NCBI RefSeq assembly: GCF_032854445.1
Contig: NC_088301.1
Span: 46,559,116-46,623,115 of the forward strand
DNA length: 64,000 bases
DNA from: Liolophura sinensis
Taxonomy: Eukaryota; Mollusca; Polyplacophora; Chitonida; Chitonidae
Direction of reading: 5' to 3'
The position numbers and the translations under genes were made by a program. Below the pieces are notes generated by a model that was not told where the DNA came from, ran no database searches, and saw only the letters and a program-made list of their open reading frames with translations. Shown here in pieces: positions 5,926 through 64,000 of the stretch. Numbering within the stretch: the stretch's first letter is position 1; every line of letters begins with the position of its first letter.

Positions 5926-6118
5926 ATTCAGATCACAGTGTTATGTGTGTCTATCAGCCTGAGCGCCTCGGTTGCCCTCGTGTGCCTATTTACCCCAAAG
6001 TTGTATATAATAGTCTTCCAACCCGAGAAGAACGTCCGCAAGCTCACCATGAACTCAGCTACCTACAAAAAAGGTGGTGCTGGCGGCGGAAGCAGTATAG
6101 GATCCTCAATGAACCACG
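5926..6118 (+). CDS. GRM: mGluR gene A, TM7 and proximal tail exon (partial gene)
   Basis: This internal exon of a metabotropic glutamate receptor encodes transmembrane helix 7 and the start of the cytoplasmic tail. It opens after a pyrimidine-rich acceptor (TTTTTTGTTTCAG) in phase 0 with IQITVLCVSISLSASVALV, continues with the family hallmark PKLYIIVFQPEKNV, then a Lys/Ser/Gly-rich tail containing GGAGGGSSIGSS. The PK-Y-I-x-x-F-x-P-E-x-N-V block is typical of class C mGluRs. The exon is 193 bp and ends in phase 1 at CACG|GTAAAT. The upstream exons (ligand domain, cysteine-rich linker, TM1-6) are not in the window. If the donor is not used, translation reads on for about nine codons to a stop at 6145-6147, giving an alternative C-terminus. 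Gene B on the other strand has the same phase-0 intron position. Confidence 0.9.
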
Positions 6119-34199: not shown

Positions 34200-34520
34200 T
34201 CACGTAGATGGCGTCTGCATGGCAACTCCTTCGTCAAACGAGGAATCTTCAAAACTGTCTTGGAAAACATTTTCTGGAGATCGCTGAATTTCAGATGACA
34301 CAACACTCCCATTGTAGGTTACACATGTTTCAAATTTGTTTTGTGTACGCGCAAACTGTGGTCTGCTCGTACTTTTCTGTGTTGTACTGCTGTTGTTGTT
34401 GACTTGACGAACGTTTTTGTGCGGCTGGAACAACACAATGTATACTTTAGGAGCGAAGAGACACGCCAGAGCTACGGCAGCACTGATGCTTACGCACATA
34501 CACAAGGAAGTGCGCTCGAT
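34200..34520 (-). CDS. GRM: mGluR gene B, exon 7: TM7 and cytoplasmic tail
   Basis: Last exon of the second metabotropic receptor, residues 632-737 of the reconstructed partial protein. The acceptor (TTTTTATTTCAG) is followed in phase 0 by IERTSLCMCVSISAAVALA, then the class C hallmark PKVYIVLFQPHKNV, then a roughly 70-residue Asn/Ser/Thr-rich tail ending VAMQTPST before TGA. The tail is in one exon, unlike gene A, where an intron interrupts it. It has no PDZ-type terminus. The exon starts at exactly the same codon position as the TM7 exon of gene A, supporting common ancestry. The tail carries many Ser/Thr residues that could be phosphorylated, but no specific kinase site is claimed. Confidence 0.92.
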   Translation of the reverse strand: MERTSLCMCVSISAAVALACLFAPKVYIVLFQPHKNVRQVNNNSSTTQKSTSRPQFARTQNKFETCVTYNGSVVSSEIQRSPENVFQDSFEDSSFDEGVAMQTPST

Positions 34521-35157: not shown

Positions 35158-36082
35158 CTTAAAGTCATTGTTGGCTCCGAAGTATATAGGAATGAACGCC
35201 AGCCAAACAATGCAAGTTGAATACATGGTAAATGCAATGTATTTGGCTTCATTGAAGTTCTGTGGTATTTTTCTCGTTTTGAAAGCGTACACAGTACAAA
35301 ATATTATCAACAGAATGTTATAAAACAGGGATATGACCACTGCTATTTGTGAGGCCTTGCACTTCAAGACAACAGCATCTTTCCCTTGGCTGACTAGAAG
35401 AGTGTCAGGAACTTCAAATCCTAACCATGTTATGCCGCCTACCGTTTGTACGGACACTAGGCATAAGCATATGACAATTTGTGATTTGGGGCTAGTGTAG
35501 CTAGGCCGCTTCACCATGGCCTTCACACCTCTGTTGAATATCCTGTATATCCGGTTGGTCTTGGTCAGCATTGCCGCGTATATCAAGCACAGAGAAACAC
35601 CCAACCCAACGCGTTTGGCAGTACAGATGATGATCGACGGCCTGGCGAGAATTACAAACGACATTCCATAGGATAGAAATATCCCAAGAAGTAAGATGTA
35701 GCACAACTCGCGACCAGAGGCCATAATCACCGGAGTCTTGTTGTAGCGGATGAAGACGAGAAGGACAAAGATAGTACACATCATTCCAAGGCTGGAGAAA
35801 GCCACAGGAAATATGGCCCAAAGGCTGTCCCATTCCAAATGGAGGACAGGTAGTCTGATGCATGAGCTTTTGGTCGGATCTGGCTTGTGACCTTCCGGGC
35901 ACTTGGTACAAGTGGATTCATTCTCCAGGTATTCGTAATCTCCACACTTGATACAAACCCAGCAGCACGAATCTCCTCTGGTACTTTTCGCGTGACCGAA
36001 CTTACACGGGTCACTGCAGACGGATTTGGGATGGGTTCCCGACGTCCCTTTCCATCTCAGTAGACTAGCATTCAGGAACAAC
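35158..36082 (-). CDS. GRM: mGluR gene B, exon 6: cysteine-rich linker and TM1-TM6
   Basis: Large 925-bp exon, residues about 323-631. It begins LFLNASLLRWKG, then the cysteine-rich domain with all nine cysteines expected of the mGluR linker (exon residues 22, 26, 39, 40, 43, 46, 58, 61, 74), including the CCW-x-C-x-x-C core. After HLEWDS come six hydrophobic helices. Family motifs are intact: RYNKTPVIMASGRELCY (ICL1/TM2), AAMLTKTNRIYRIF (TM3/ICL2), KTRKIPQNFNEAKYIAF (ICL3/TM6) and IVWLAFIPIYFG. The extracellular cysteines at the top of TM3 (IIICTAKR) and in ECL2 (VVLKCKAS), which form the conserved disulfide, are present. The intact ICL3 motif suggests G-protein coupling is retained. Acceptor TTGACAG|G (phase 2), donor AAG|GTACGT (phase 0). 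Overall most like vertebrate group II/III receptors. Confidence 0.95.
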
Positions 36083-37506: not shown

Positions 37507-37633
37507 CCGTCTGTCCATTCGCCAACAAGTTCATATTCATAGGAGCCTTCATCTTTCTTCTTAAATTGGAAGATGTCATAACCACTCAGCCCGTCGCCAT
37601 TCATGTCGAAATGAACGAGATTACCACCAACAC
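37507..37633 (-). CDS. GRM: mGluR gene B, exon 5: end of ligand-binding domain
   Basis: 127-bp exon following TTTTTTTTAG. The frame reads VGGNLVHFDMNGDGLSGYDI, then FQFKKKDEGSYEYELVGEWTDG. FD-x-NGD-x-x-x-YDI-x-Q is the typical end of the mGluR Venus-flytrap domain, where the strand returns to lobe 1 before the cysteine-rich linker. It starts in phase 1 (Gly codon shared with exon 4) and ends in phase 2 at GACGG|GTGCGA. The joined codon GG|G gives glycine and leads into exon 6. Confidence 0.93.
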
Positions 37634-38003: not shown

Positions 38004-38216
38004 CAGTAAATGAAACGTTGCGGATGTAATGTAACAGATCCTCGCCAGCCATACTCGTCATGTGGTTTACGCAGGTCTGAAGAGATTTCTCCCGTTTGCA
38101 CTTAGCAGAGAGCATTGCATCCATGGCATGTGCCAGGGCATAAACGGAATCGATCACAAACTGGACCAGCCCTTCTTGTTCATAGACGATGTTACGACCT
38201 GCAAACGTCTCTAAAC
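38004..38216 (-). CDS. GRM: mGluR gene B, exon 4: ligand-binding domain; Lys replaced by Leu
   Basis: 213-bp exon (phase 1 to phase 1), residues about 210-280. It opens LETFAGRNIVYEQEGLVQFV and continues IDSVYALAHAMDAMLSAKC. In vertebrate mGluRs the block is (E/D)(S/G)K(x)xFV(x)xAVYAMAHAL, and the lysine (K409 in mGluR1, K377 in mGluR2) contacts the distal carboxylate of glutamate. Here that codon (38167-38169) is CTG, leucine. The rest of the helix is well conserved, so the alignment is secure. A predicted N-glycosylation site (NVS) is near the end. Donor ACTG|GTACGA. Confidence 0.93.
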
Positions 38217-38407: not shown

Positions 38408-38533
38408 CTGTACAATGATCTACTTTGGGTTTGTTTTCAAATGTGCAATTAAAGGTCACCTCCCAGTATTCTTTGAACCAAGGATTCCTTCTGTTTTGAA
38501 TAGGATTTAGTTGCAGGAAGTAATTGTCGAATC
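38408..38533 (-). CDS. GRM: mGluR gene B, exon 3: ligand-binding domain
   Basis: 126-bp exon (phase 1 to phase 1), residues about 168-209. After CCTTTTTTAG the frame reads FDNYFLQLNP, then NRRNPWFKEYWEVTFNCTF and HCTG. It matches the mGluR segment FD-x-YF ... NxRNxWFxEFWExxFxC, including the cysteine that pairs within lobe 2 and the RNPWF(K/A)E(Y/F)WE signature. The NCT sequon is a possible glycosylation site. Donor TACAG|GTAAGG is near consensus. Confidence 0.93.
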
Positions 38534-39165: not shown

Positions 39166-39453
39166 CAGGTACAACTACCCTTTTCGGTAGGAGAGTCACA
39201 GCTCCCTCTGCTGCTTGTTCCTGCTTGTGGACAGGATGAATCTTTTTGCCCCAGCTGTCACTGGCCAGGAAGGCAAAATCTTGACTACGATTACTTTTAA
39301 GAAATGCTTGGAGTAATCCCCGACTGTTGTCCTCGTTCACAAACATGACGACAGCCCGAGCTTTATCCACTTCAAACATCTCCTTGATCAGCTTGTCAAA
39401 GGTGTCCTCTGTCACAGATAGTGGTATCTCAAAGGAATGGGCCACACAAACAC
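39166..39453 (-). CDS. GRM: mGluR gene B, exon 2: ligand-binding domain lobe 2
   Basis: 288-bp exon (phase 1 to phase 1), residues about 72-167. After TTTTCCATTTCCAG the frame starts VCVAHSFEIPL and includes ARAVVMFVNEDNSRGLLQAF, FAFLASDSWGKKI and EGAVTLLPKRVVVPG. These match mGluR lobe 2: the xARAVVxFxxE strand, the SDxWG motif whose Asp (D318 in mGluR1, D295 in mGluR2) binds the ligand amino group, and AEGAVTxLPKR. The aspartate is retained. One N-glycosylation sequon (NRS). Donor CCTG|GTAGGT. Confidence 0.94.
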
Positions 39454-45472: not shown

Positions 45473-45550
45473 ATCTATTGAAAATTTATAATGCATCTAA
45501 AAATTGCCTTTAATAGTATGTTATTAACTTATATATTACACATGCAGCCC

Positions 45551-45842
45551 AGCAAGTCCTGCAAAAAGGATGAAGCCAGCAGGGGTCTTTGTTCTTGCCA
45601 ACAAAGAGAGTAACAAGAAAAGTGAGGCCAATTTCACTAAATCAGTCTAGCAAGTCCTGCAACAAGGATGAAACCAGCAGGGATCTTTGTTTTTGCCAGC
45701 AAAGAGAGTAACAAGAAAAGAGAGGCCAGTTTCACTAAACCAGTCCAGCAAGTCCTGCAACAAGGATGAAGCCAGCATGGATCTTTGTTATTGCCTGCAA
45801 AGTGAGTAACAAGAAAAGTGAGGCCAATTTCACTAAACCATT
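45551..45842. repeat. 98-bp tandem repeat, 3 copies
   Basis: Copies start at 45551, 45649 and 45747 with AGCAAGTCCTGCAA(A/C)AAGGATG and each contains GATCTTTGTT(C/T/A)TTGCC and AGTAACAAGAAAAG(T/A)GAGGCC. Exact 98-bp spacing and few differences show a recent expansion. A - strand ORF (45637-45915) across it is a by-product. Confidence 0.92.
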
Positions 45843-47759: not shown

Positions 47760-49427
<1,668 letters not shown>

Positions 49428-49692
49428 GGGCCTCCGTGGCTCAGTTGGTTAGGCGCTAGCGCAGCAGCGTAATGGCCCAGGAGTGTCTCACCAATTGCGG
49501 TCGCTGTGAGTTCAAGTCCAGCTCATGCTGGCTTCCTCTCCGGCTGTACGTGGGAGGGTCTGGCAGCAACCTGCGGATGGTCGTGGGTTTCCCCCCGGCT
49601 GTGCCGGTTTCCACCCACCATAATGCTGACCGCCGTCGTATAAGTGAAATATTCTTGAATACGGCGTAAAACACTAATGAAATAAATAAATG
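49428..49692 (+). mobile_element. tRNA-derived SINE, full length
   Basis: Starts GGGCCTCCGTGGCTCAGTTGG, with RNA polymerase III box A TGGCTCAGTTGG (49437-49448) and box B GTTCAAGTCC (49510-49519) at tRNA-like spacing. Then the body (GCAACCTGCGGATGGTCGTGG, CACCATAATGCTGACCGCCG, AAATATTCTTGAATACGGCG) and an (AAATAAAT)-type tail to 49692. This is the most complete copy in the window and defines the family seen in reverse at 16.1, 20.4 and 28.95 kb. Confidence 0.92.
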
Positions 49693-51542
49693 ATATCTAA
49701 GCGATATGAAATATGAAGCAACTCTGTACTCTCGAGATCTTAGTAATTACAGCTAATTTAAATTCTAATGCCTACTCTCTTCCACAGGAAGCAATAGCTA
49801 AGCACTTTTATCACTGATGAATACTTCAAATGTCCAAATAATGCCTCATTCAAAACAATTGATTTAACTTAGGTGAGCTGGACTGACGGAAAATTACTCG
49901 TATTAAATCTGAATACAAAATACTGGTTTCATACAGTTGAGGTACAATAGTTTACCATTTGTGAGAGAGTTCTTGGCCAAAAGTGACCTGTAATAATTAT
50001 ACACAAGTAACTATAAAAGAAAGTGGTCTTGAACTTTTTATGCGACATGAAAAGCTGTTTCTCAGAACGTACGTAGGCCTGGCCTAAAGTTACACGTAGG
50101 TTTAACTCATTGGCGCGGTAATATGTCGTCATGGCAATTAAGATGGGCTTAACGTTACTAGTATTTTGCTAAAGAGCCTCCAGAAAATTCTCCACAAAGG
50201 CTGTATTGCTTGCAAAACCGTGACATTTTTCACAAACAAAGCAGGCAGGCAACGCAGCCTCATTATCCTAAGACGCTGACCTGTCTATTATTAACTCGAC
50301 GCCATTAATAAAGAGGGATACAATACTGCATTCTTGAAAAGCTTAAAGTTCGCACGTTATTCGTTTCAACAAACTGCGACAACCCATATCAGTGACAAGA
50401 TCCCCAGGCACGTGCTATGAATTTCACATGTCTACGGAGACATCCTGGCATAGTGGTTATCATACAGCATAGCTATGAATTTTGGTACCTTCCTCGCTGG
50501 AAACACTGCTAGTTCGCTTATTTATGATTAGTCTCAGGGATCTGTCATCATAAAATAGTCAATAAATCAGATTCATTGTCCAAGGAATACATAATGTTGC
50601 AAAAAAAAAAAAACAGTTTCATAAAACCATGTCACTGAATGGTGTTGGTATCGATTGTTCTATGCAAGATGCGTCTATTGCAAAAACAGCTTCCGGACAA
50701 CACGAAATGAAACAATACTTAATGTTTAAGGAGAAGGCAACCATCCATATCATTTGTTTTGCTTTAAATGTCAGGTACCTCGCGGCTTTCACGCGTTTCT
50801 AGGAAGCAGTCAAAATAAACACGCCTTGCAGCAAGGTTCGATCTCATGACAATTAAAATATAGCGATATAATACTCTGCTGCTTTTACTTGGTTACACTT
50901 TAAAACTGTGTGAATGGGCTTATTTTGGCTGCAGATCCCATTACAATTATAGGGACAAGAGACTTTGCGAAGCCAACTGCTATATGTGATCCAGTACTTT
51001 CACAAAACATTGTTGATTAAAGATATTGCTGCCTTCCATATCTTTGTCTTGGAGTACGCCGTCTGATACAGTCCCCAGAAATTACTGGGTATAGGGACAA
51101 AACAACGTGTCGGGACCCTAAGGTACCCATCAGCCCGTATGACCCCATTATGCAGAAGTCTAGCCAGGGCTATGCTAGGTTCTGGTCGTGTCTTAAACTT
51201 AGGTTGTGGAGACTTCCTTCCTTCTGTCCACAGCACTCTTTGTATTCAGGACTACATATTGTTTGTACTTTTAAATGTCCCACGAAGACAAATTAGCTTC
51301 CATTGGCCAGGGCGACTGCATTCTTGTAAACCTAATTGACATCTTCAGAGCAAGCGGGAAACATATTAGCCGAACATCAGATGGACAGGTTTACTGAATT
51401 GCTACGTGACAAAATCGGTAAATATGTGTCCAGACAGAGAGGGTGTTTTACTTCCTATGCTGTTCTCTTTTATATTATTTATATCCATTTATATTAGTTA
51501 TATCCATTTCTGCTTTTTCATTTCCCCTTTTCTGATATGTAG
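49693..51542. other. No supported feature
   Basis: AT-rich sequence. ORFs at 51000-51236 (-) and 51139-51339 (+) overlap each other on opposite strands and show no domain. The 3' end (about 51455-51540) is strongly pyrimidine-rich and looks like the end of an intron leading into the candidate exon at 51543. Confidence 0.45.
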
Positions 51543-51819
51543 GCAAAAAGTACTGAAGTCTTCAAATACAATTTTAGCCACTGAAGAATCCCGGAATGGT
51601 ACCCAAGGGTCCAACGAAAAATTGCTTGATGTCCAGGAGGTTGAAGACATGGGACTCCTTGAAGTTTGCCGGTTAAAAAGCTCTAACCAGAACTCACATA
51701 TCCCCTCGGTCGGAAAATTGCCATACCTACACAGTGTGTCGTCTTTTGAACCTCAAATGCCAATTGGTTCAGACAAATTGGTAGAACTGATCACAGCAGG
51801 TCAGACTATAATCGATTAG
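51543..51819 (+). CDS. Orphan candidate terminal exon, unknown gene
   Basis: After a long pyrimidine tract and TGATATGTAG at 51542, the frame stays open for 276 nt to TAG. Its first base completes a codon (upstream phase 2). The translation is hydrophilic and protein-like: QKVLKSSNTILATEES, then NEKLLDVQEVEDMGLLEV, and at the end SVGKLPYLHSVSSFEPQMP and VELITAGQTIID. I recognise no domain. It could be the last exon of a + strand gene whose other exons were not found, which would place that gene opposite the 5' region of gene B. Alternatively it is a chance ORF. No homology search was possible. Confidence 0.35.
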
Positions 51820-52745
51820 ACCTCTCTTAAGGAAATACTAGTTGACCACCGCTTGTACCGGGCCCACCCTTATAATTTCCAGAAGGTCTTGGCTTCTAAG
51901 AACTGCACACACAGCATATTCAGTTCATCTAGGTTTGCTTCATGTCTTACCCTGTCTACGTATGACTGAACCGAATAACAAAAAATAATGAATATGTGCA
52001 CTATTGGGGTAATTCTTGATTCCAAATAACTCGGTAAATGGATCAAAACTCAAACGTTGTCTCCTCTTAGGCACAATTCCAGCTGTCACAGCTTGCATCA
52101 TATGTGTATGTATAGGCCGATTTTCCCAGGGTCACGACATTTTATTTCACGTCTAACCTTGTAATGGAAGAAGAAAAATACAGAGCACACCAAACAGTAC
52201 CTCACACGAGAAACATAATTTACGGCTGTCTCCATCTACAAATTCTTCACGTGAATGAACAAAGCCGGCATCTCAGACATCATTATTATTATAATTCATA
52301 ATTAAAGCACCAACGAAAAAGATACCCATGAGTGCACTTCGCTTTAGTTTCTACATACAGAACTATTCTGGCTATCAGTCAGTTCTTCACCAATGTAAAA
52401 TAAAGAATGTGTTAGAAGCATGAGTCTCCTTAGCTCCCACACAAACAAACATTCTAGTTTGGCAGTACATGTGATGTTCCAAATCTTTTGAGGACATCTG
52501 ATTGGTGTATTGTGGATGGAGGTCAAATCTCGCGATCACATGGCGAGACTTGATGTCAATCTAGTTTATAACAGCGATCTAACCATCAAGTCCCGTCGCG
52601 TGACAACGAGAGGTTTCTCTTTCCTCTGCAGATCAGCATATTTTTCAGCTTCCGAAAAACAAAAATGGCAAACTATACACGAACACATTCAGGGGATGTT
52701 TTTGATGTATTGATGATATTGATCATATATATAGCGCGATTACTT

Positions 52746-52825
52746 CGAAACATAATGGATTATCCGAATGAACATTTGCATATTACGAAACATAATGGAT
52801 TATCCGAATGAACATTTGCATATTA
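52746..52825. repeat. Perfect 2 x 40-bp tandem duplication
   Basis: CGAAACATAATGGATTATCC and the following 20 bases (through GAATGAACATTTGCATATTA) occur twice with no difference. Recent duplication. Confidence 0.95.
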
Positions 52826-52942
52826 TTTTCCGAGATAACAGCTCCTAAAAGCTGATAAAATGTAGCGTTCCTCTCGAATACAGCTTCAAAATTCTTGATT
52901 TTATCCATGGGAGAACAGGAATGGGGGGTGATGTGAAGATGG

Positions 52943-53042
52943 CCGAAGGCCCCACTTAGGCTAATCAGATCCTTGTCTGATTTAATTCCAACACGGAAGA
53001 GGATTATAGGTCTCTAATGAAGCCTTCATCAAACTGGTCCCT
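52943..53042 (+). repeat. Diverged ~100-bp repeat, copy 1
   Basis: CACTTAGGCTAATCAG, a TCTGATTTAATT segment, CGGA(A)...GGTCTCTAATGAAGCCTTCA and CAAACT(G)G recur in the same order and strand at 53914-54013. Confidence 0.6.
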
Positions 53043-53572
53043 TTCGAAACAGTTTCAGTGATTGGCCAGCTAGCGTGATATTCAGTGAAATGGTGACCAT
53101 GAGGAAGGTACATGACAAAAGGATCACCACTTGAAGAACGGGAAGGCAGAGTAGATATTATCGGGAATTATTACTTAAAACAATGCAGTACAGAGGGCTC
53201 TCTCAGCAATTTGCTACCTAAGAAGTTACAGAAACTTGAATTAAAAAAAAAGACTTACGACTGTAGTCCATGTGTACAGTCATACATGCCAATACAGGAA
53301 TCATATATATGTATGGTATTGCTTTAATTCAATTTATTTTAGGAACACCAGAGTTACCCTCACGTCATACATGAAGCCGGGAAAGAACATCTTCGTGAGA
53401 GATTTTTCCTTAAGATAAATGAAGTAACCTTTTCCTCAATAGAATAAGACATGACGGTTATCGTATCTAGCACTGTGGTATAACATCCCTTCAAGCTCAA
53501 TTTTTTGCAAATCTGAAAGTTAATAAAGGCATATCAAGATGGGCTTACTTCTTCTTTAGTTTATTATACATC

Positions 53573-53857
53573 TTAGTTTATCAGCGTGCTTTTCATGTTA
53601 CAAGAATGACAACTGATTCCTTTGAAAGAATCTCTGTTCGGATTTGGAGTTGTCAAATTATACAGCACCATTGTGGTTGTTGAAGGTATTCCTTTGAGGT
53701 CCTCGGGCGTCCAGTTCAGCCTGGCGAGCTTAAGTGACCTATATCCCTCGCGATTAATCCGACAAATGAATCTGTCATCTTGAAGGATGGAAGTCGTCAA
53801 CGACATCCTATAGTTGGACTGAACAAAGTGCCCCTTTGTCCTGGAGTAACATTTCAA
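53573..53857 (-). pseudogene. ORF with weak leucine-rich-repeat N-cap resemblance
   Basis: 94-codon ORF. The segment TPEDLKGIPSTTTMVLYNLT followed by NPNRDSFKGIS loosely resembles the start of an LRR domain (L-x-x-IP-x-x-T-x-x-L-x-L-x-x-N ... F-x-G-L), preceded by a single cysteine (FICRINREGYRSLKL) where an LRR N-cap usually has several. Key leucines and the second asparagine are not in register, so this is either a decayed LRR exon or coincidence. No neighbouring LRR exon was found. Not receptor-related. Confidence 0.2.
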
Positions 53858-53913
53858 CCATTATCGACTTCTGCTTTGGTGTTGTCCAAAATAGATTCCG
53901 ATGTCGTGATAAC

Positions 53914-54013
53914 GGTAGGCAGCACTTAGGCTAATCAGTTACTTTTCTCATCTAATTGTTACTCGAAGTCGGATAATACGTCTCTAACGAACCCTTCACA
54001 AACTCGACCATGA
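53914..54013 (+). repeat. Diverged ~100-bp repeat, copy 2
   Basis: Partner of 52943-53042, about 970 bp apart in direct orientation, with the shared words CACTTAGGCTAATCAG and GTCTCTAA(T/C)GAA. May be an interspersed repeat or a local duplication. Confidence 0.6.
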
Positions 54014-57000
54014 TAGCCCATCTTCAAGGCTTTATGCCCGAAAGACCCCAGCTAAATGGCTGCGTTCTGAGGTTTCCATTGGATGATAATTGGAAAATTT
54101 TGCGAGCGTGAAGTGCCATGCAACACGGTTAAACAAACCGTGTCCACATGCCATGTATTCATTTTACTTTCACCCGTATGTGTACCAAGTTGAGATTGCA
54201 TTATATTTCCGCCTTTTTCCGGAACAGATTTCATCAAACCAGTAGGCACCATCAGCATCAACGTGAAGAAAGCATACTTAATTTTTTTTTCGGCAAACCC
54301 TTTTTAAACAATCTAACGTCCATTAGACTCTGAGGTATACATTAAAAATATAGTGCATTAAAACTTCAGGCATTCAGTAAACTTCGCATCGCCATACATG
54401 CTAACTTCCATGAATCTGTGTTATGAGACTGAGATATATAAAAAGTGTCCATATTCGCGTATTTTCCGAACCATGTCTCGGGCTTATAAGATTGACCTAT
54501 CCACAAAATGATATATATGAAAAAACATATTTAAGAGTGTGCTATCCATAAACAACGAACTTAGTTCGTAAAACCTGCTCCAAAATGCACCAGAAACAGC
54601 ATTTATTAGTTCCGTACAGCTAGAGGTACACACACAAAAAACAAACGTTTACTCTTTACAAATCCGCAAGCTGTCCATCCCTAAGAATGTGCAAATGTAA
54701 CGTTACTGGAATACACAGTTAAAACGACGTAAACGAGTCCGGCGTAAAGTGGATAAAATAAGTTTGAACATTAAAATGGGAAAGAGACAAGAACCTTTTC
54801 ATCGCAGAGGCAAAATTTTGTATCATGGTATCTGAGGCCGAAAGCACTCCTAAAGCTTTATGGCAAAAATTGGGCTGAGGCTTACATTGCCTAAGGCAGA
54901 CATTGACCTACACAGTCTAAGTGTGTAATATCGAAGATAAACAGGACATGAAGACTACGTGACATTTGCCGTAATGTGGGGAGACAACTTTGATGGCTTG
55001 CTTCCTGAGACCATATCTGTGGTCTTAGCCTTGACGCAGAACGTAGCATGTTTGTTACCCGGTGCCAACGGCTTTCTGGTGTATTAGATTATGTGAAAAA
55101 GCGAAAGTCTTGTTAGTATCCAGGTCACTACATTATTTCAATTTGATTGAATTTTTGGCTTTCCAATAGCGGAATAAGTTTAAACATATGCCGTGTAAGG
55201 AATTCTCAACACTGTTATAGGAGGGAAAATACAGTACAATTCTGACATTGCATTGTGAAATGTTTCAGTGTTGTATCCGCCTTAATACAGGCTAGTTTAT
55301 CGCTGCATAGAAAGGTGATTAACGTGAAGCCGATAGTTAGATGAAACACTCATTTAATGCAGATAGCCAATTTTCTTTCCTAAGGACAACGCTTTAAATT
55401 TCCAATCCCAGTTTGTTGAAGAGATAATTTGTATTCTAATAAGTATTGAGTTGGTAAGAGGTACTGATTGTATGTAATTTGTGAATCTTGAGCACGGGCT
55501 TATAGAAGGTGTTGGACAGGATCAAAACTGACACTTCAAAAGATTATCACCTATTTACAGTAAGTGAGACACAGAAAACGGTTTGATAAATTAGGCACTG
55601 GTACTTCAAATTTGCATCAAAAGCAGAAAGGTGGCTTTATCTTTTCATAACACTTTCTTGAATTAAATATAGAACCGTATACATTTGAATGAGTAGAGAA
55701 GCCAAAAACTTGAATAAATAGCGAGGTTTTCTTTAAGATGAAGGCCAGCTCTTTTTTGTTTTTGTTTTGTTTTTTTTAAATAAGCCGTTGCTTTTAGACC
55801 GGAACATGTATTGGGAGAAATCTCAGCCTGAAGTCAGATAAGCATGGCTTTGTGAATGGCCACATAGTGTTTCTGAGGGTCTTCAGCGGATAAGAGCCAT
55901 TTCATTGATTATTGTATTTCTGGAACGCTGTCAAACCTTCACTTAGGAGACAGCGTCGTCAGATGGCGACAATTTACCCCTGGGCTTCAATCTGCGTTTC
56001 GTAATTTCTTTTCCCTGATTTTACGTCTTTCGGTAAGCCGTGGCGGAAATGGTCATGATCTCACGTATCCTTTGGGTTTTATGTTTAATGGAGTTCTGTA
56101 AATGACCGTGTCCTCTGGCTTCCACAGGCCACTAATTAAACATACTGACTGGGAAGTACCATTTACAGGGCCTTCGTCCGTCATGTTAAAGACCGCAGGC
56201 TGTGCTTCGGACATGAAAACCTCATCTGCACATCAGTAAAGCAGGACATGATTCCACCCAGTCTTCATTGACTAGAGATCGTCGATGTCTTGGCCAAAGA
56301 CCAAACCTTTACGTGGTCAGTGTATTGGGTTTATTGTAAGGAAAAGGATAACAGAAGCATCGAGTCTAAATTTCACAAGCTGTTGTACGCATCGACATCC
56401 AGTTAACCAAGACCGTAGATTTCGTCACCTCAGCATGAGGACTGTGTGTCATTATCGACAGGACATTTTTTAAAATGGAAATCTATTTCGAAAAGCGGTT
56501 CAGTGTAATGTAAAGTGATGAAGCAATCTATTTCCGATAACCTTTTCGGATAAACTACTGGATAACAATACTTTAGTAATACTGAGGTAATAAAATATCG
56601 TTTGATCCCGTCCTACAATAGTCTTGCGACGTATATGAACGTTAACTCGGGGAATAGAATGTGGCTCATTGCTAAGTCTCGCTACCCAACCACTGGCACA
56701 TGAAACGTGTGTTCCATCCAGGTCTTGGAGTGGAATTTCTATTTTCTTGACGCTTTAGAGACGTTTGACTGTCTCCGTTTTGCCGTTTGCAAGGTTTGTT
56801 CGTTGTCTTCCGTCCATATGAGTTTGGCGTTAAACAGCAATCGCTATATCATTCAAACTGATTTCTATCCCGTACAAGAGCAACAAATTGGTCATTCGAA
56901 GAATCCTGTCAAAATGAGGTTTTGAGAAAACAACTTGTGTAACGTTGAGGGTCAAGTCATTAAATAGCTCACACTTGACGTTGAATTTTAACCATAGAAC

Positions 57001-58835
57001 ATAGATTCATTAACTGTTGCTTTACAAAAACTTATAATTCAGCCATCATTCTGCAGTCACAGTATTGCTGGCGATTGAAAGGCTTAAAGCCTTTCAAAGT
57101 TAATTGGTGAAGAACCTTAGATGTCTTTGTTCTAAGTACAAAACGCCTAGTCCACGCCGAAGAAGTCCACGAGCCGACAGTAGAAAACGAATAGCAGAAG
57201 AGTCCACCAGCCAACTGTGGAAAAAAGAGATGTCTGCGGGCGTATGTGAAAGTGTGGGTAACACAGGATGACTATGTGAACAAGGTGACAGGAGTAATAA
57301 ACATGTTTTGCGATGTACGTCAAGGTTATTCCGCTGCCTGAAAGGGAAATTATTCAGCTGATATACACAAAACATAGATAAGCACTGAGGCTCTTGTTAC
57401 CCAACAGAATTTGTAGGATCAGCTTGTTGCACGCGAATCACGAAAAAATTAAACTACAACCCTTTTACACAATTTATAGTATTTGTACCGTGCTGAAGAT
57501 CACAGAGTGGTGTCGGGACTGCAAGCTGTTTCTCACCACGATCATGGCGTAAACTCCCTGGAGAGACAGAGGCGCGTGCTTTTTTCTGATACGCTTCCAT
57601 TCTTCACAAAAGGATTCTGTTCAATGATCATAAGCAGAATAACAACTTGTGAATCAAAGGGATGTTTTTTTTTCATATCGGTAAAAGCCTCATCCCAACT
57701 CGCTTCCATACATTCGCTCGGTAGTATGCTTTATGCTTTGATGATTTTTATCAAAAATGTCAAACAAGTTATGTGACGAAAACAAAACGGATAATACAGG
57801 CAATTATTCTATATGCTTGAAAACAGAAACTCTACGTTATGTGAGCGTCCCTTTCAGTGAAACCAATAGTACAATACAATATTTGTGACTATCACATGTA
57901 TGTCTTATGTAAAGAACAGTATTATTAGTAAGATAGTATGTAAATAAATCTTGTGTTAAGTACACTACAACACAATTAAATGTAACCATAGTGATGTTTT
58001 AACTTCCTTTGCGTAACACGTGTTAATATTAATTGTATAACAGGTATTCCAATACCGTTCTTATTTAAACGAGTTACAGGCGCCTTATGAATGAGTGGCT
58101 TTCAGGATTTGATCGGCGACGGTTAGCAACGATAAACTGAGCCCAATTAGTTCCACTTCCATCATAGCTGAGAAGGATGCCTTTCTTAACGTTTTTTATT
58201 ACAAGGTTTATAACTCAGTCGTCAAGATGTTCGTGGTCTGAGCGCCGTCTAGCCTCCATGTAAAAGTATCCCACCGCCGAATGGGGCTTATGTGCAATCC
58301 CTAGAAACTAATGGTGTTAGAGTTACTCTATTCACTGAGAGACCCAACGAAAGCTCAGTCTGGAGCTTCAAGTATAAAGCGTGCCATACTAAACCTATAT
58401 TGGTACACGAAAGAGCTTAGACTGCAAATAACGACACATTTGTCGGTCCAGTCAACTATGGTTAGGTACGCACGAAACTTTTACAAGATAAGCCTAATCT
58501 GTTATGAAAGTTGGCCGTCCTTAAGCTGATCGCTATCAACGAATGACACAATGTGATGAAAAAAGCGCGCCCTGTATTCCAGTGGGGTGTTATGCTCGAG
58601 GTCCTAAGCATACTGAGTGTTGACTGACTTGCGGTCTAGCTTGAAGTCCGAACAAGGAGATCTGGGATTTGCTTTCTAACATACTGTACACAAAAGATAC
58701 CACAGCGAAAGTCTTGGTCAAGACGGACGCCATTTAGTGTAGACATGATGAACTAGTCACCCCTCTAGCACGATTTCAATCATTCCACATGATGTCATCA
58801 GAAAACGAGATCACTCCATAATTTATACAGTCTTA
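54014..58835. other. No supported gene
   Basis: No domain-bearing ORF. Small ORFs at 57032-57375 overlap on both frames of the - strand. A short perfect hairpin (TTGAAAGGCT-TAA-AGCCTTTCAA) lies at about 57075-57097. Nothing receptor-like was seen on the - strand. Confidence 0.5.
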
Positions 58836-58837
58836 CA

Positions 58838-59292
58838 TTTCATCTGCATATTTAAACTGTATAGCTCTAATGAATAAAAGAGACTTACCTTTCATCTGCA
58901 GATTTAAACTATGTAGCTCCAATGAATAAAAGAGACTTACATTTCATCTGCAGAATCAAAACTATATACCTCTCAAGAAATAATACACACATTTCTTCTG
59001 CAGATTTAAACTATATAGCTCTAATGAAATAATAAAGACTCACGTTTCATCTGTGAAGATTCAAACTATATAGCTCTTAAGAAATAATACAAACTTACAT
59101 TTCATCTGCAGATTTAAACTGTATAGTTCAAAAACAAATAATACAGGCTTATATTTCATCTGCAGAATCACAACTGTATAGCACTCAAGAAATCAAACAC
59201 ACCTTTCGTCTGCAGATTTAAACAGTATAGCTCTAAACAAATAATATAAGCTTACATTTCATCTGCAGAATCAAAACTGTATAGCTCTAAAA
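58838..59292. repeat. ~54-bp minisatellite, about 8 copies
   Basis: Units of the form TTTCATCTGCAGATTTAAACT, ATATAGCTCTAATGAA, TAATA(A)AGACTTACA. Two unit types (CAGATTTAAACT and CAGAATCAAAACT) tend to alternate, suggesting a higher-order two-unit structure. Most units contain a PstI-type CTGCAG. Confidence 0.9.
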
Positions 59293-61137
59293 ACCTTTTC
59301 AAACTAGGCCTAGTTTATGCATGTTTATTTTTGTATACTCATAACGTTTTCATCAGATGTAGATTGACATGTATTGTTTTTATTTCAATACCAATGAACA
59401 ATTTTAACTATAATTATTTTAACTATCTCAGACGTTGGTTCCGCAGTTCGCAGCGCGTATCGCTTACAAAATGAAGATATTAAAACCGATGAGTCTAACC
59501 AGCATGTCAAAACACGTGTGCCAAAAGGCGATCGTCTGCTTAGATAACAGCTTGGGTGAGAAATCCCTGCGACATTAATAATCAGCTGTGCAAAGAACAT
59601 AAGCCCTGACAGTACATGTATTTTACATTATTTGCTATATGTTTAAAATTTTTAGTTACGGATTCTACTGAACATACCATTCGACAAATTGGCAATCCTA
59701 CATCTAGCATCGCTGAGACAGTTTTATTTCATCACTGCACCCGATATATATAGGAAAAGGGCACGTGCTGTGTTCATTTCAGACGTTATCTGAAATAAGC
59801 TGACCAGTACCAGCATCTCAGTTTCCCCAAGTCTACAAATTATTGAAAACAGGTCTAGATCTTTCTCACAAGATAAATGTATAAATACCCAAACCATAAC
59901 AAGCGATCAGATTTTCGCACCCAACCCCAATCCTCGTTTCCCCTTGACCTGACCGAACGGCTAAATTGTCCAGATGCCCACATGAGGGGTTTGCGATAGC
60001 CCCTACAGGAAAGCTATAAAGGTCTGTTCCGCGTTATCGGCATGTTATTTGATACTAGAGACTTGTTTCTTCACTAACGACTGGAGTAATGTACAGGTCA
60101 AGTAGGGTGCAAACTTTAAAGTGAATGGTAATATTGTTCGTGGCACTTTTGGATATATCCTTGTTTACGATCGCTTTGGTATATACCTAACCCTGGTAAT
60201 AGGACCCAATAGCGCTGCCAATAACTGGTTTAACTGTAAAGAGGTGAAAAGTTGCCGATAGTCAGCCTCATATTCTGACTGTGTTAAACTGCTCTACAGC
60301 GTTGGAAATTTATACTTTCATATTTTGTAACACGGTAAAGAAAACTAAACCGATTTGGTCACACTTTATTTCCTTCAGTATATCACAATTTCAAGTCCAT
60401 TCCCTTTTCAGATTTCGCTGAACAGTGAGAAACTGAAACCAATTACACAGAGGGGTTTTCTTAAAAATTGTAATAAACTGAATGCATGACCTGACGGTCA
60501 CGATCAAAGTCACTTTTGTTTTGGGAAGTCAGTCTCAGGTCAACCCGCTTTCTTTGCATAACAAGAACAGAAGGTCAGCATACTGACTTTCCAGAAGAAG
60601 CTAACTTCACACAGCTTTTTGCATTTTATACCAATACTTTAACCCAGAACCGATTATCATCATATAACTCCAAAAACGCAAAGTTATGTCATACATATAA
60701 ACTTAGTAAAAAGAAAAATCAGAAATGTCATTAAAACACCAGATAGCGTTGAATAAATATGTCTGTACAACACTGCGGTGGCAAAAATTTAATACCTCTA
60801 AGGTATCATACGTATTCTTAGCAAAGCTTCTTAACGTCATTTGGAAGCAAAATATCCCAAATACAATCTCCTATTCTGCTCAAACAACCATCAAGGTGAC
60901 AAAACCTCCTCACCCGTAAAAGACAACTGTAAGCTGGCGTATGTCAGCTGTTTTAAGGCTATCTTCTACACCACATAGTATTTTCATCATCACTTCTTTT
61001 AAGATAAGAAACAAAGAACATCTGTCTGAAGTGGACTCGTAAAGTTTTCTGAGGGTTAGTACAATGCCTTTACAGGTTGTTTTGTCTTAGCGCTTTGAAC
61101 AATCGGTTATTCAAATGGTATGTATGCCTCTGTGTAT
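59293..61137. other. No supported gene
   Basis: Nothing recognised beyond AT-rich sequence and small unsupported ORFs (59385-59600 -, 60516-60919 +). Confidence 0.5.
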
Positions 61138-61250
61138 GCTTGGGGTTTAACGTCGCACTTAACAATTTTTCAGTCATATGACGACGTTTTCTTGTGGCAG
61201 GACAAGTCCATGACGCCACTGAAATATCAAGCCGAAGACACCAGACATGT
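61138..61250 (-). mobile_element. Second SINE family, 3' fragment
   Basis: On the + strand it starts TGGGGTTTAACGTCGCACTTAACAATTTTTCAGTCATATGACGACG and ends near AAGCCGAAGACACCAGACATG. Its reverse complement ends ATATGACTGAAAAATTGTTAAG, matching the tail at 62125-62155, and contains CATGTCTGGTGTCTTCGG, related to the tandem array at 19.05-19.47 kb. Confidence 0.7.
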
Positions 61251-61875
61251 ATTCTAATGGTATTTAAACATTAAGCTGCGAAATTCTAACGGAGTCTATG
61301 CATGTCAAGGTTTTTGATGAAAATGATTAAACAGCTCTCTTGGTTTCAGTTGGTGACACCAGTCATTACGTTAAGACTATAATAGCTAGTTCAAATCGCA
61401 GAGTCTAAGCCAGATCAAAGACCATGGATATTTTGACATTATAGCAGGGCATTATTAATATATTGCTTCCGGTTTCCTGGTACTGAGACAGTTTGGCTCT
61501 AATAGCCAAAACCTGAAAGAGCTGAATCTAATTGGGCGCTTATCTACTTATGTGGCAGCAATAGCTGTTGTCTTAAGCCCTATCATTTGGAATATCGGAT
61601 AATATGGAGTTCATCAGATGCAGAATTATAGAACACCTCAATGCAGTCAGCCATGTTCACATTTGATACGCCATATCACCATGGTTATTGCCGAGTTAAT
61701 TTTAGAACAGAGCTTCGGCCAGGAAAACATGTTTCCAGGTACGCATGGTTTCCTCTGGCACAGGCTCAGATTGCTATCCAGTGTGATCCGGGCCCAAAGG
61801 AGAATTAGTCAAAATTAACTCCACCTGCTATGGCTACTCTTTCGCCATTCAACTCTACCCAAAGCAAGCGAGACT

Positions 61876-62160
61876 GCTTCGGTGGCCTGGTGATAGAGCG
61901 TCCGCTTTGAAATGGGGAGAACTGGTATCAAATCTTGGTCGTGTCATACAAAATACTTTAAATATGGTACTTGTTGCTGCCTCGTTTGGCTCTCAACACT
62001 GGCAAGTTAGACCAAGAAAACAAGACAGGTTGTCCCTGTGTCAGTGTAATGTGATCAGGCAGGGTGTCGGCCTCGTCCAGCAACAAGATGCAGTGTATGT
62101 GCACACACTGAATGACTCCTCGTCGTGATATGACTGAAAAATCGTTAAGTAAAGTAAATG
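61876..62160 (+). mobile_element. Second tRNA-derived SINE family, near full length
   Basis: Head GGTGGCCTGGTGATAGAGCG (box-A-like, 61881-61900) and GGTATCAAATCTTGG (box-B-like, 61924-61938), then CATACAAAATACTTTAAATATGG, a body with CAGTGTAATGTGATCAGGCAGGG, and a tail ATATGACTGAAAAATCGTTAAG ending near 62155. The promoter boxes are degraded, so the copy is probably inactive. Confidence 0.75.
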
Positions 62161-64000
62161 GTATAACCAAGCATATATATGTTTGAAACAGGCGAAGCAA
62201 TAGTAACACCGAGTTAAGTAGTACGATACAAATAATCATTCTTTTTTTTTGCATTACGCTGTATCCCTTGTGGTATATTTCTTACATTAAAAACACGCTC
62301 ACAGAAAGACATGAGATGAAAGAGGAATCTTACTTTCCAAGCAAAAATTAGAAAGCTTATCCAGTAATGCTGAAAGCCATTTATTTCTTTAGTGGCATGC
62401 GCAGGCCTATATTTTTTGTTTCCGAGAAGCCGTCCCTATTAGTAAGCAATCATGAATTTGATGCTATTTACCTGGAGTAAATATGAGATACCCCATTAAT
62501 GTGATGAAGGGATATTGCTGAGCTGGGTATATATCGACCATAAGTAACATCTCGGCAGCAGGGACTTGCAAATGTCAACAGAAGCTTGTGTATCTATGTG
62601 TATATAATCGTGGCAAATGTCGGAGTCGCTAGATGACACGCTGCATACATCTACACTCAGCATGTTTTATTCATCAGAACACTGGAGCATTGAATACCCT
62701 GTGCTGGGCTATTGTCTGCCATAAAAGAGATATTCTCTTCATGTGAAAAACGGTTTGACGGCTTTATCGGGCGTAAGCTGCTTTGTAATCAAGACTAAAA
62801 GGCCTACTATATTTCCTCGTAAGACGGTGGTATTGTTTCGCTGCTGTTTCCATGTACAATAGTCCTCCAGGTATGTCGAAGGTGGTTCAATATGTCAGCT
62901 TCATAATTAGTACCATGGAAACGTGTATGTGTTGGTGAATTTCACTGTATGCTTGGCTGATGTCTTACAATGCAAAGCGCTTCAGTGGTGCAGTAGTATA
63001 TGTACATTATATTCATCACTTTTTGATTGTCGTTGTTGACATATTTTGTAAAAAAATAGGGAAGAATGACACTTTGTGCTAAAACTCTGTTTTCATGGTT
63101 CTGTCCTTTAATTTGGACATCCCATTCCGTTTGCCACGAGCGTTCACCATATCTAAAGTGTCTGAGAGCTGTAAACAACTGGATAAACGGTTAACTTATA
63201 GTGTTTTGAATCGGTCAGTGTCACATGCTGCTGATAATTAAACACATAGACGCCTGAAATATTCTGAATATCAATTTTTCCTAAATTTACATTTATTGGA
63301 GAGTAATTTACCAATTTTGTCTAATTTGTTTCAACAAGAATGTTGCAAGTTATCATCTAGTCACATGCAGGTGCACAGGCTTAACTCAGTCACAACTCAT
63401 AAATCCATGTAGATCGAAGTGTCTCTAGAAATTCAGACCACCCCTTAAAGTTGGCATGTACATCTCAGCCCGGCATGGAGAAACAAAGCGTCTGTATATG
63501 CTGCGTGCAGGCGCCTACTGACCGGTTTAAACAACTCCGTTAGAAAGCCTAATTGGATCTTTCCCACGAAATCATTAGCAGCACTGCTTTTTTTCATGGG
63601 TTTTATAAGCCATTGGTAAAGGTATCATTGTGGTCATTTTGTTTCCAGGAACAATTTCTTGATGAGTTTTATCTCCTTTCTATCATTTCGTAGTTCAGTG
63701 TTTGGAACACATTATTTTTTACCAAACATAACTGAAGATCCATGCAAATTTCCTTTTCTTTAGATTTTCAATGCTTTATACAATTTCAGATTTATAAATA
63801 TAGACAAGATTATAAAATCAATGAAACACAGAAAGGCAAAATATCAAATTAACCACAATAAGTTTGCCATACCTTTAAACGCGTAGTCCGAAACATCGCC
63901 TAAAACTAACTCCTAAAACTAACTCAAATGTTGACAATGCTTCCTTAATATTGAATTTTCAACTCCCCGATGTAAGATTGGAGTTGCATAAAACCAGGCT
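62161..64000. other. No supported gene
   Basis: AT-rich sequence with no recognised exon, RNA gene or repeat. ORFs at 61958-62254 and 62942-63178 (-) show no domain. A direct duplication (CCTAAAACTAACT twice) is at about 63899-63923. Confidence 0.5.

Follow-up and report, generated by a model that had tools for sequence, protein, structure and literature searches.

Metabotropic glutamate receptors (mGluRs) in which contacts to the distal carboxylate of glutamate have been replaced are described from several animal groups. In the fly receptor DmXR, the contacts to the γ-carboxylate have been lost, glutamate is inactive, and L-canavanine activates the receptor in the same pocket (PMC2695807); a second article gives the same ligand behaviour, with glutamate inactive and L-canavanine active (PMC3646046). 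Class IV mGluRs, found in all bilaterian phyla except vertebrates, placed as sister to classes I–III and predicted not to bind glutamate, have both R78 and K409 replaced in every member identified (PMC6307864). Four ascidian receptors (PMC9138782) and a planarian receptor whose gene name differs between text and figure legend (PMC3261222) are reported to have a similar loss of contacts, divergent pockets are reported for Fasciola (PMC6114109), and starfish mGluRs are placed in sensory organs in passages that do not mention the residue (PMC6267866). A literature search, which was not exhaustive, found no primary mutagenesis paper for the lysine or for AmGluRB/mXR. Here, we describe receptor B, an mGluR-type gene on the minus strand of a 64,000-nucleotide stretch of the chiton Liolophura sinensis (assembly GCF_032854445.1, contig NC_088301.1, positions 46,559,116 to 46,623,115; hereafter the window), in which the lysine at the K409 position is leucine.

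An earlier note made from the letters alone had proposed this replacement without giving the strand, and the present analysis bears it out. Positions 38167–38169 read CAG on the plus strand, and the sense codon is therefore CTG (Leu). The exon that carries it, 38216–38004 on the minus strand, reads LETFAGRNIVYEQEGLVQFVIDSVYALAHAMDAMLSAKCKREKSLQTCVNHMTSMAGEDLLHYIRNVSFTG, with GTAG before it and GTACGA after it. The helix aligns without gaps, as the note had held, both with that of human mGluR8 (YEQEGKVQFVIDAVYSMAYAL) and across the human mGluRs in the alignment (1, 2, 3, 4, 5, 7 and 8; mGluR6 was left out), with a one-residue insertion relative to mGluR8 lying just upstream of the helix, and the leucine faces lysine in 7/7 of these receptors. 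Two ways in which the observation could have failed had also been named, namely a sequencing error at the codon and an alternative exon with lysine. A single-base error is ruled out because CTG is two bases away from AAG and three from AAA, and neither a relaxed tblastn search nor a motif scan, both over the whole window, turned up another copy of the exon or one with lysine.

The substitution is not a lone departure, since receptor B differs at 10 of the 78 ectodomain columns that are invariant across the seven human receptors (S to I, L to M twice, K to L, A to S, M to L, L to K, C to V, G to S and R to G). The C-to-V change is probably an alignment shift, because the alignment with mGluR8 pairs a neighbouring cysteine of receptor B with the mGluR8 cysteine. 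In the nine-cysteine and seven-transmembrane (7TM) part, 12 of the 107 invariant columns differ. As read from these alignments, K to L is a loss of charge at a contact site and one departure among several.

The gene model consists of seven exons joined by splice sites and reading frame, with a stop codon at the end. The product in the window has 737 residues and no internal stop, all six introns are GT–AG with matching exon phases, and three Pfam domains score above their curated cut-offs (ANF_receptor, E 7.7e-60; NCD3G, E 1.6e-12; 7tm_3, E 3.5e-70). The acceptor of the first exon found is ambiguous, with two tandem AGs that place the exon start at 48025 or 48017. A pseudogene was considered, and the seven exons show no sign of one: the frame is open, the phases match and the introns are GT–AG. 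The features are as follows.

47810–48025, minus strand: first receptor B exon found, starting (S)QISYAST; keeps the Thr, Asp and Tyr backbone contacts.
39166–39453, minus strand: exon encoding NEDN and SDSWGKK, in which the Asp contact and the Lys of class III type are retained.
38408–38533, minus strand: exon, placed by splice sites and reading frame.
38004–38216, minus strand: Leu-bearing exon with the helix YEQEGLVQFVIDSVYALAHAM, placed by splice sites and alignments.
38167–38169, minus strand: CTG (Leu) codon at the position of mGluR1 K409, mGluR2 K377 and mGluR8 K401.
37507–37633, minus strand: exon with the end of the Venus-flytrap domain, placed by splice sites and reading frame.
35158–36082, minus strand: exon for the nine-cysteine domain and the larger part of the 7TM domain, placed by splice sites and reading frame.
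34200–34520, minus strand: last exon, with TM7, C-tail and stop codon, placed by splice sites and reading frame.

A search upstream of 48025 in the window did not recover the first coding exon or exons, which would carry Y74, R78 and additional contacts to the backbone. Pfam returned no family for three minus-strand frames covering about 48600–63590 (the scans left out 48026–48599 and the last 410 bases of that strand) or for one plus-strand frame covering 49011–64000. A tblastn search of the whole window with the N-termini of mGluR8 and mGluR3 reached a best E of 0.36–0.42, at a site downstream of the receptor B stop, and motif matches upstream of the first exon were all short, with none in a fitting context; searches of this kind could miss an exon that is short or divergent. 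The partner arginine had been given in the earlier note as the pair R78/R57, which does not agree with the residue numbering: mGluR1 R78 corresponds to mGluR2 R61, and R57 to mGluR1 Y74.

Within the window, the backbone-contact positions of the T188, D208, Y236 and D318 type are all kept in the alignment, including the Thr of SYAST, the Tyr of EGNYGE and the Asp of SDSWG that had been singled out before as retained, and the S186 position is Ala, as in classes II and III. The contact roles of K409 and R78 follow PMC6307864, and that of the Thr follows PMC2695807.

By its ectodomain, receptor B sits with class III within the family. When the ectodomain is compared with PDB, the best 60 of 90 matches give 317–337 bits for mGluR8/4/7/6, followed by mGluR3/2 at about 235–245, mGluR5/1 at about 224–233 and CaSR at about 112 bits; these matches, the alignment and the tree all put receptor B closer to the mGluRs than to CaSR. 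Ectodomain identity is 49–51% to class III, 41% to class II and 38–40% to class I, whereas identity outside the ectodomain is 44–49% to all three classes. At the ectodomain columns that are diagnostic for class III, receptor B shows the class III state in 15/29, the class II state in 8, the class I state in 2 and another state in 4, and SDSWG-x-K and EQEG-VQFVID, two pocket motifs of class III, are both present. Outside the ectodomain, receptor B is closest to class III, with class II almost level; at the diagnostic columns of this nine-cysteine and 7TM part (exon 35158–36082), 5/42 are in the class III state, 18 in the class II state, 8 in the class I state and 11 in another state.

In trees built with human receptors as the comparison, with no invertebrate and no class IV sequence and with mGluR6 left out, receptor B is sister to mGluR4/7/8 under three model settings. 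The ultrafast bootstrap for this position is 100 for the full length, 99 for the ectodomain and 80–87 for the nine-cysteine and 7TM part, the last of which is not decisive. A position outside classes I–III is rejected by the approximately unbiased (AU) test for the full length (p 0.0003–0.0011) and the ectodomain (p 0.0002–0.0004), and by the Shimodaira–Hasegawa (SH) test for the ectodomain (p 0.03) but not for the full length (p 0.09–0.10); for the nine-cysteine and 7TM part alone, AU does not reject it (p 0.066–0.082). As no invertebrate sequence is in the tree, it does not separate an invertebrate class III receptor from a class IV receptor.

Judged by the features of the two classes, receptor B is mixed. 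It has the class III lysine of SDSWG-x-K, and it has leucine where class III carries the lysine K401/K405/K407. The K409 position of class IV, defined in PMC6307864 as non-polar or acidic, is matched by this leucine; branching as sister to classes I–III is not what the tree gives, a result that is provisional in a tree without class IV sequences. A pattern search of viral and prokaryotic contig collections gave 2 and 12 matches, respectively, none of them coding for a relative. From these comparisons, we assign receptor B to the mGluR family, on its class III side, with the lysine at the K409 position lost.

The loss at this position belongs to a pattern known from earlier work on invertebrates, to which receptor B adds a member; PMC6307864 reports the loss of R78 and K409 across class IV. 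The earlier note had likened the pocket to that of the insect mXR receptors. The likeness holds insofar as the K409-position lysine is lost while the visible backbone contacts are kept, which matches part of the DmXR and class IV pattern; it fails in that the pattern extends beyond insects (it is reported for class IV, ascidians and a planarian) and in that the loss of side-chain contacts is only partial, because SDSWG-x-K retains its class III lysine with a second Lys adjoining. The explanation that we prefer, which as a whole we hold with about even confidence, is that receptor B is an mGluR-type receptor of the class III side in which one distal lysine has become leucine and in which an altered ligand preference is most likely. 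Its Venus-flytrap pocket would still hold the α-amino and α-carboxylate groups of an amino acid, with leucine in place of one lysine for the distal carboxylate of glutamate. By analogy with mXR and class IV, its amino-acid-like ligand may differ from that of the vertebrate class III receptors or be of a broader range, and, as in other mGluRs, ligand binding would close the flytrap and activate a G protein. Expression, the altered ligand and signalling of receptor B are what we infer. If the ligand does differ, receptor B would be a further glutamate receptor redirected to another amino acid, and useful for learning which pocket residues set ligand choice.

Several observations weigh against an altered ligand. 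At the R323/Q306/K314 position, receptor B has Lys, matching mGluR4, 7 and 8, a residue on which the earlier note was silent and which we take to contact the distal ligand group in class III receptors. An extra Lys in SDSWGKK stands directly before it, where mGluR4, 7 and 8 have Ser, and could offset the lost lysine. The exon with the R78 position was not recovered from the window. The Discussion in PMC9750798 states that mutations of key residues severely hinder glutamate binding with K409 excepted, in conflict with the Results of the same article, where each of seven residues is said to damage function severely when changed; the article also cites a 1,000-fold loss of potency for R78L in mGluR1. 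It further reports that the schistosome receptor SjGRM7, whose distal positions are Leu79 and Ser416, is nonetheless activated by glutamate and is unresponsive to glutamine, γ-aminobutyric acid (GABA), glycine and aspartate. The predicted distal pocket of receptor B is thus one in which one positive charge is lost, one is kept and one neighbour is gained. The proposal in the earlier note of a different amino-acid-like ligand therefore keeps one diagnostic residue in its favour, and has the kept distal lysine and the SjGRM7 counterexample against it; in sequence terms, the leucine does not by itself establish that receptor B senses another ligand.

An alternative that falls a little short of an even chance is that receptor B is a true member of class IV (the mXR clade) and that class IV is nearer to class III than the literature has it. 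Being a matter of membership rather than of ligand, this is compatible with the preferred explanation. It would fit the scarcity of vertebrate class III states outside the ectodomain, the freedom of placement that the nine-cysteine and 7TM part alone leaves for most other positions, and the description of the fly class IV gene mtt (DmXR) as a homologue of human GRM6, a class III gene, although fly mGluR is described in the same way (PMC10815649). However, the published sister position to classes I–III is rejected for receptor B by AU (full length and ectodomain) and by SH (ectodomain only), in a tree that holds no class IV sequence, and R78, the second residue of the class IV definition, is not in view.

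It is also possible, though we lean against it, that receptor B has remained a receptor for glutamate. It would then be a class III orthologue whose SDSWGKK lysines and unseen R78/K74 pair hold the distal carboxylate, so that K to L only shifts affinity. The ectodomain identity (49–51% against 38–41% to classes I and II), the 15/29 class III-diagnostic columns, and the kept class III Lys with its added neighbour all speak for it, as do the exception made for K409 in the Discussion and the glutamate specificity of SjGRM7 despite worse losses (PMC9750798). Against it stand the lysine in 7/7 human mGluRs and the charge that K to L strips, the weight that the Results of that article give to each of seven residues, and the absence of the R78 position from what was found in the window.

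Unlikely, in our estimate, is a class III-derived receptor separate from class IV, with its own loss of the distal lysine and with the SDSWGKK lysines accepting a different acidic amino-acid-like ligand, which would be a second origin of mXR-like ligand switching. An artefact (a sequencing error, a decaying pseudogene or an alternative exon with lysine) is suggested by the basis in one assembly stretch and the missing first coding exon, and is highly improbable given two or three bases between CTG and the Lys codons, 737 codons with no stops, 6/6 GT–AG introns and matched phases, and no second exon copy found in the window.

Elsewhere in the window, a second mGluR-type gene, receptor A, is represented at 5926–6118 on the plus strand by what looks like a last exon, with TM7 and C-tail; this exon is 57% identical to the last exon of receptor B over 51 residues, and tblastn with receptor B found no further receptor A exon in the window. 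The two genes are convergent, with about 28 kb between them. Tandem arrays lie at 45545–45840 (a 98-base unit in 3 copies, inside the large intron of receptor B) and at 58825–59294 (roughly 104/157/212-base, upstream of the first receptor B exon found). Rfam and tRNA scans of the window gave nothing, and Pfam gave nothing above cut-off for 9 of the 28 open frames of at least 100 residues.

Among known systems, the receptors of the ascidian Styela clava (Sc-GRMs) reportedly keep five backbone contacts, have two distal-contact residues that are not conserved, and are encoded by clustered mGluR genes (PMC9138782); they belong to a different lineage, and only one of the two distal residues is visible in receptor B. 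The schistosome receptors SjGRM7 and Smp_128940 are likewise invertebrate mGluRs with changed distal-contact residues, but six of the seven contacts are changed, R78L among them, with the glutamate response retained (PMC9750798), whereas receptor B retains its visible backbone contacts. With class IV and insect mXR (DmXR, mangetout), receptor B shares kept backbone contacts in the visible part and a non-polar K409 position; unlike them, it groups with class III rather than outside classes I–III. Its R78 position lies outside the exons found, and it keeps the class III distal lysine. With vertebrate class III (mGluR4, 7 and 8), it shares the best PDB ectodomain matches (mGluR6 included), the pocket marks and the sister position in the tree, whereas their K401/K405/K407 lysine is leucine in receptor B and its nine-cysteine and 7TM part carries few of their states. 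Beside receptors without both distal contacts, the mixed state of receptor B, with one lysine lost, one kept and one gained, would make it a good test case.
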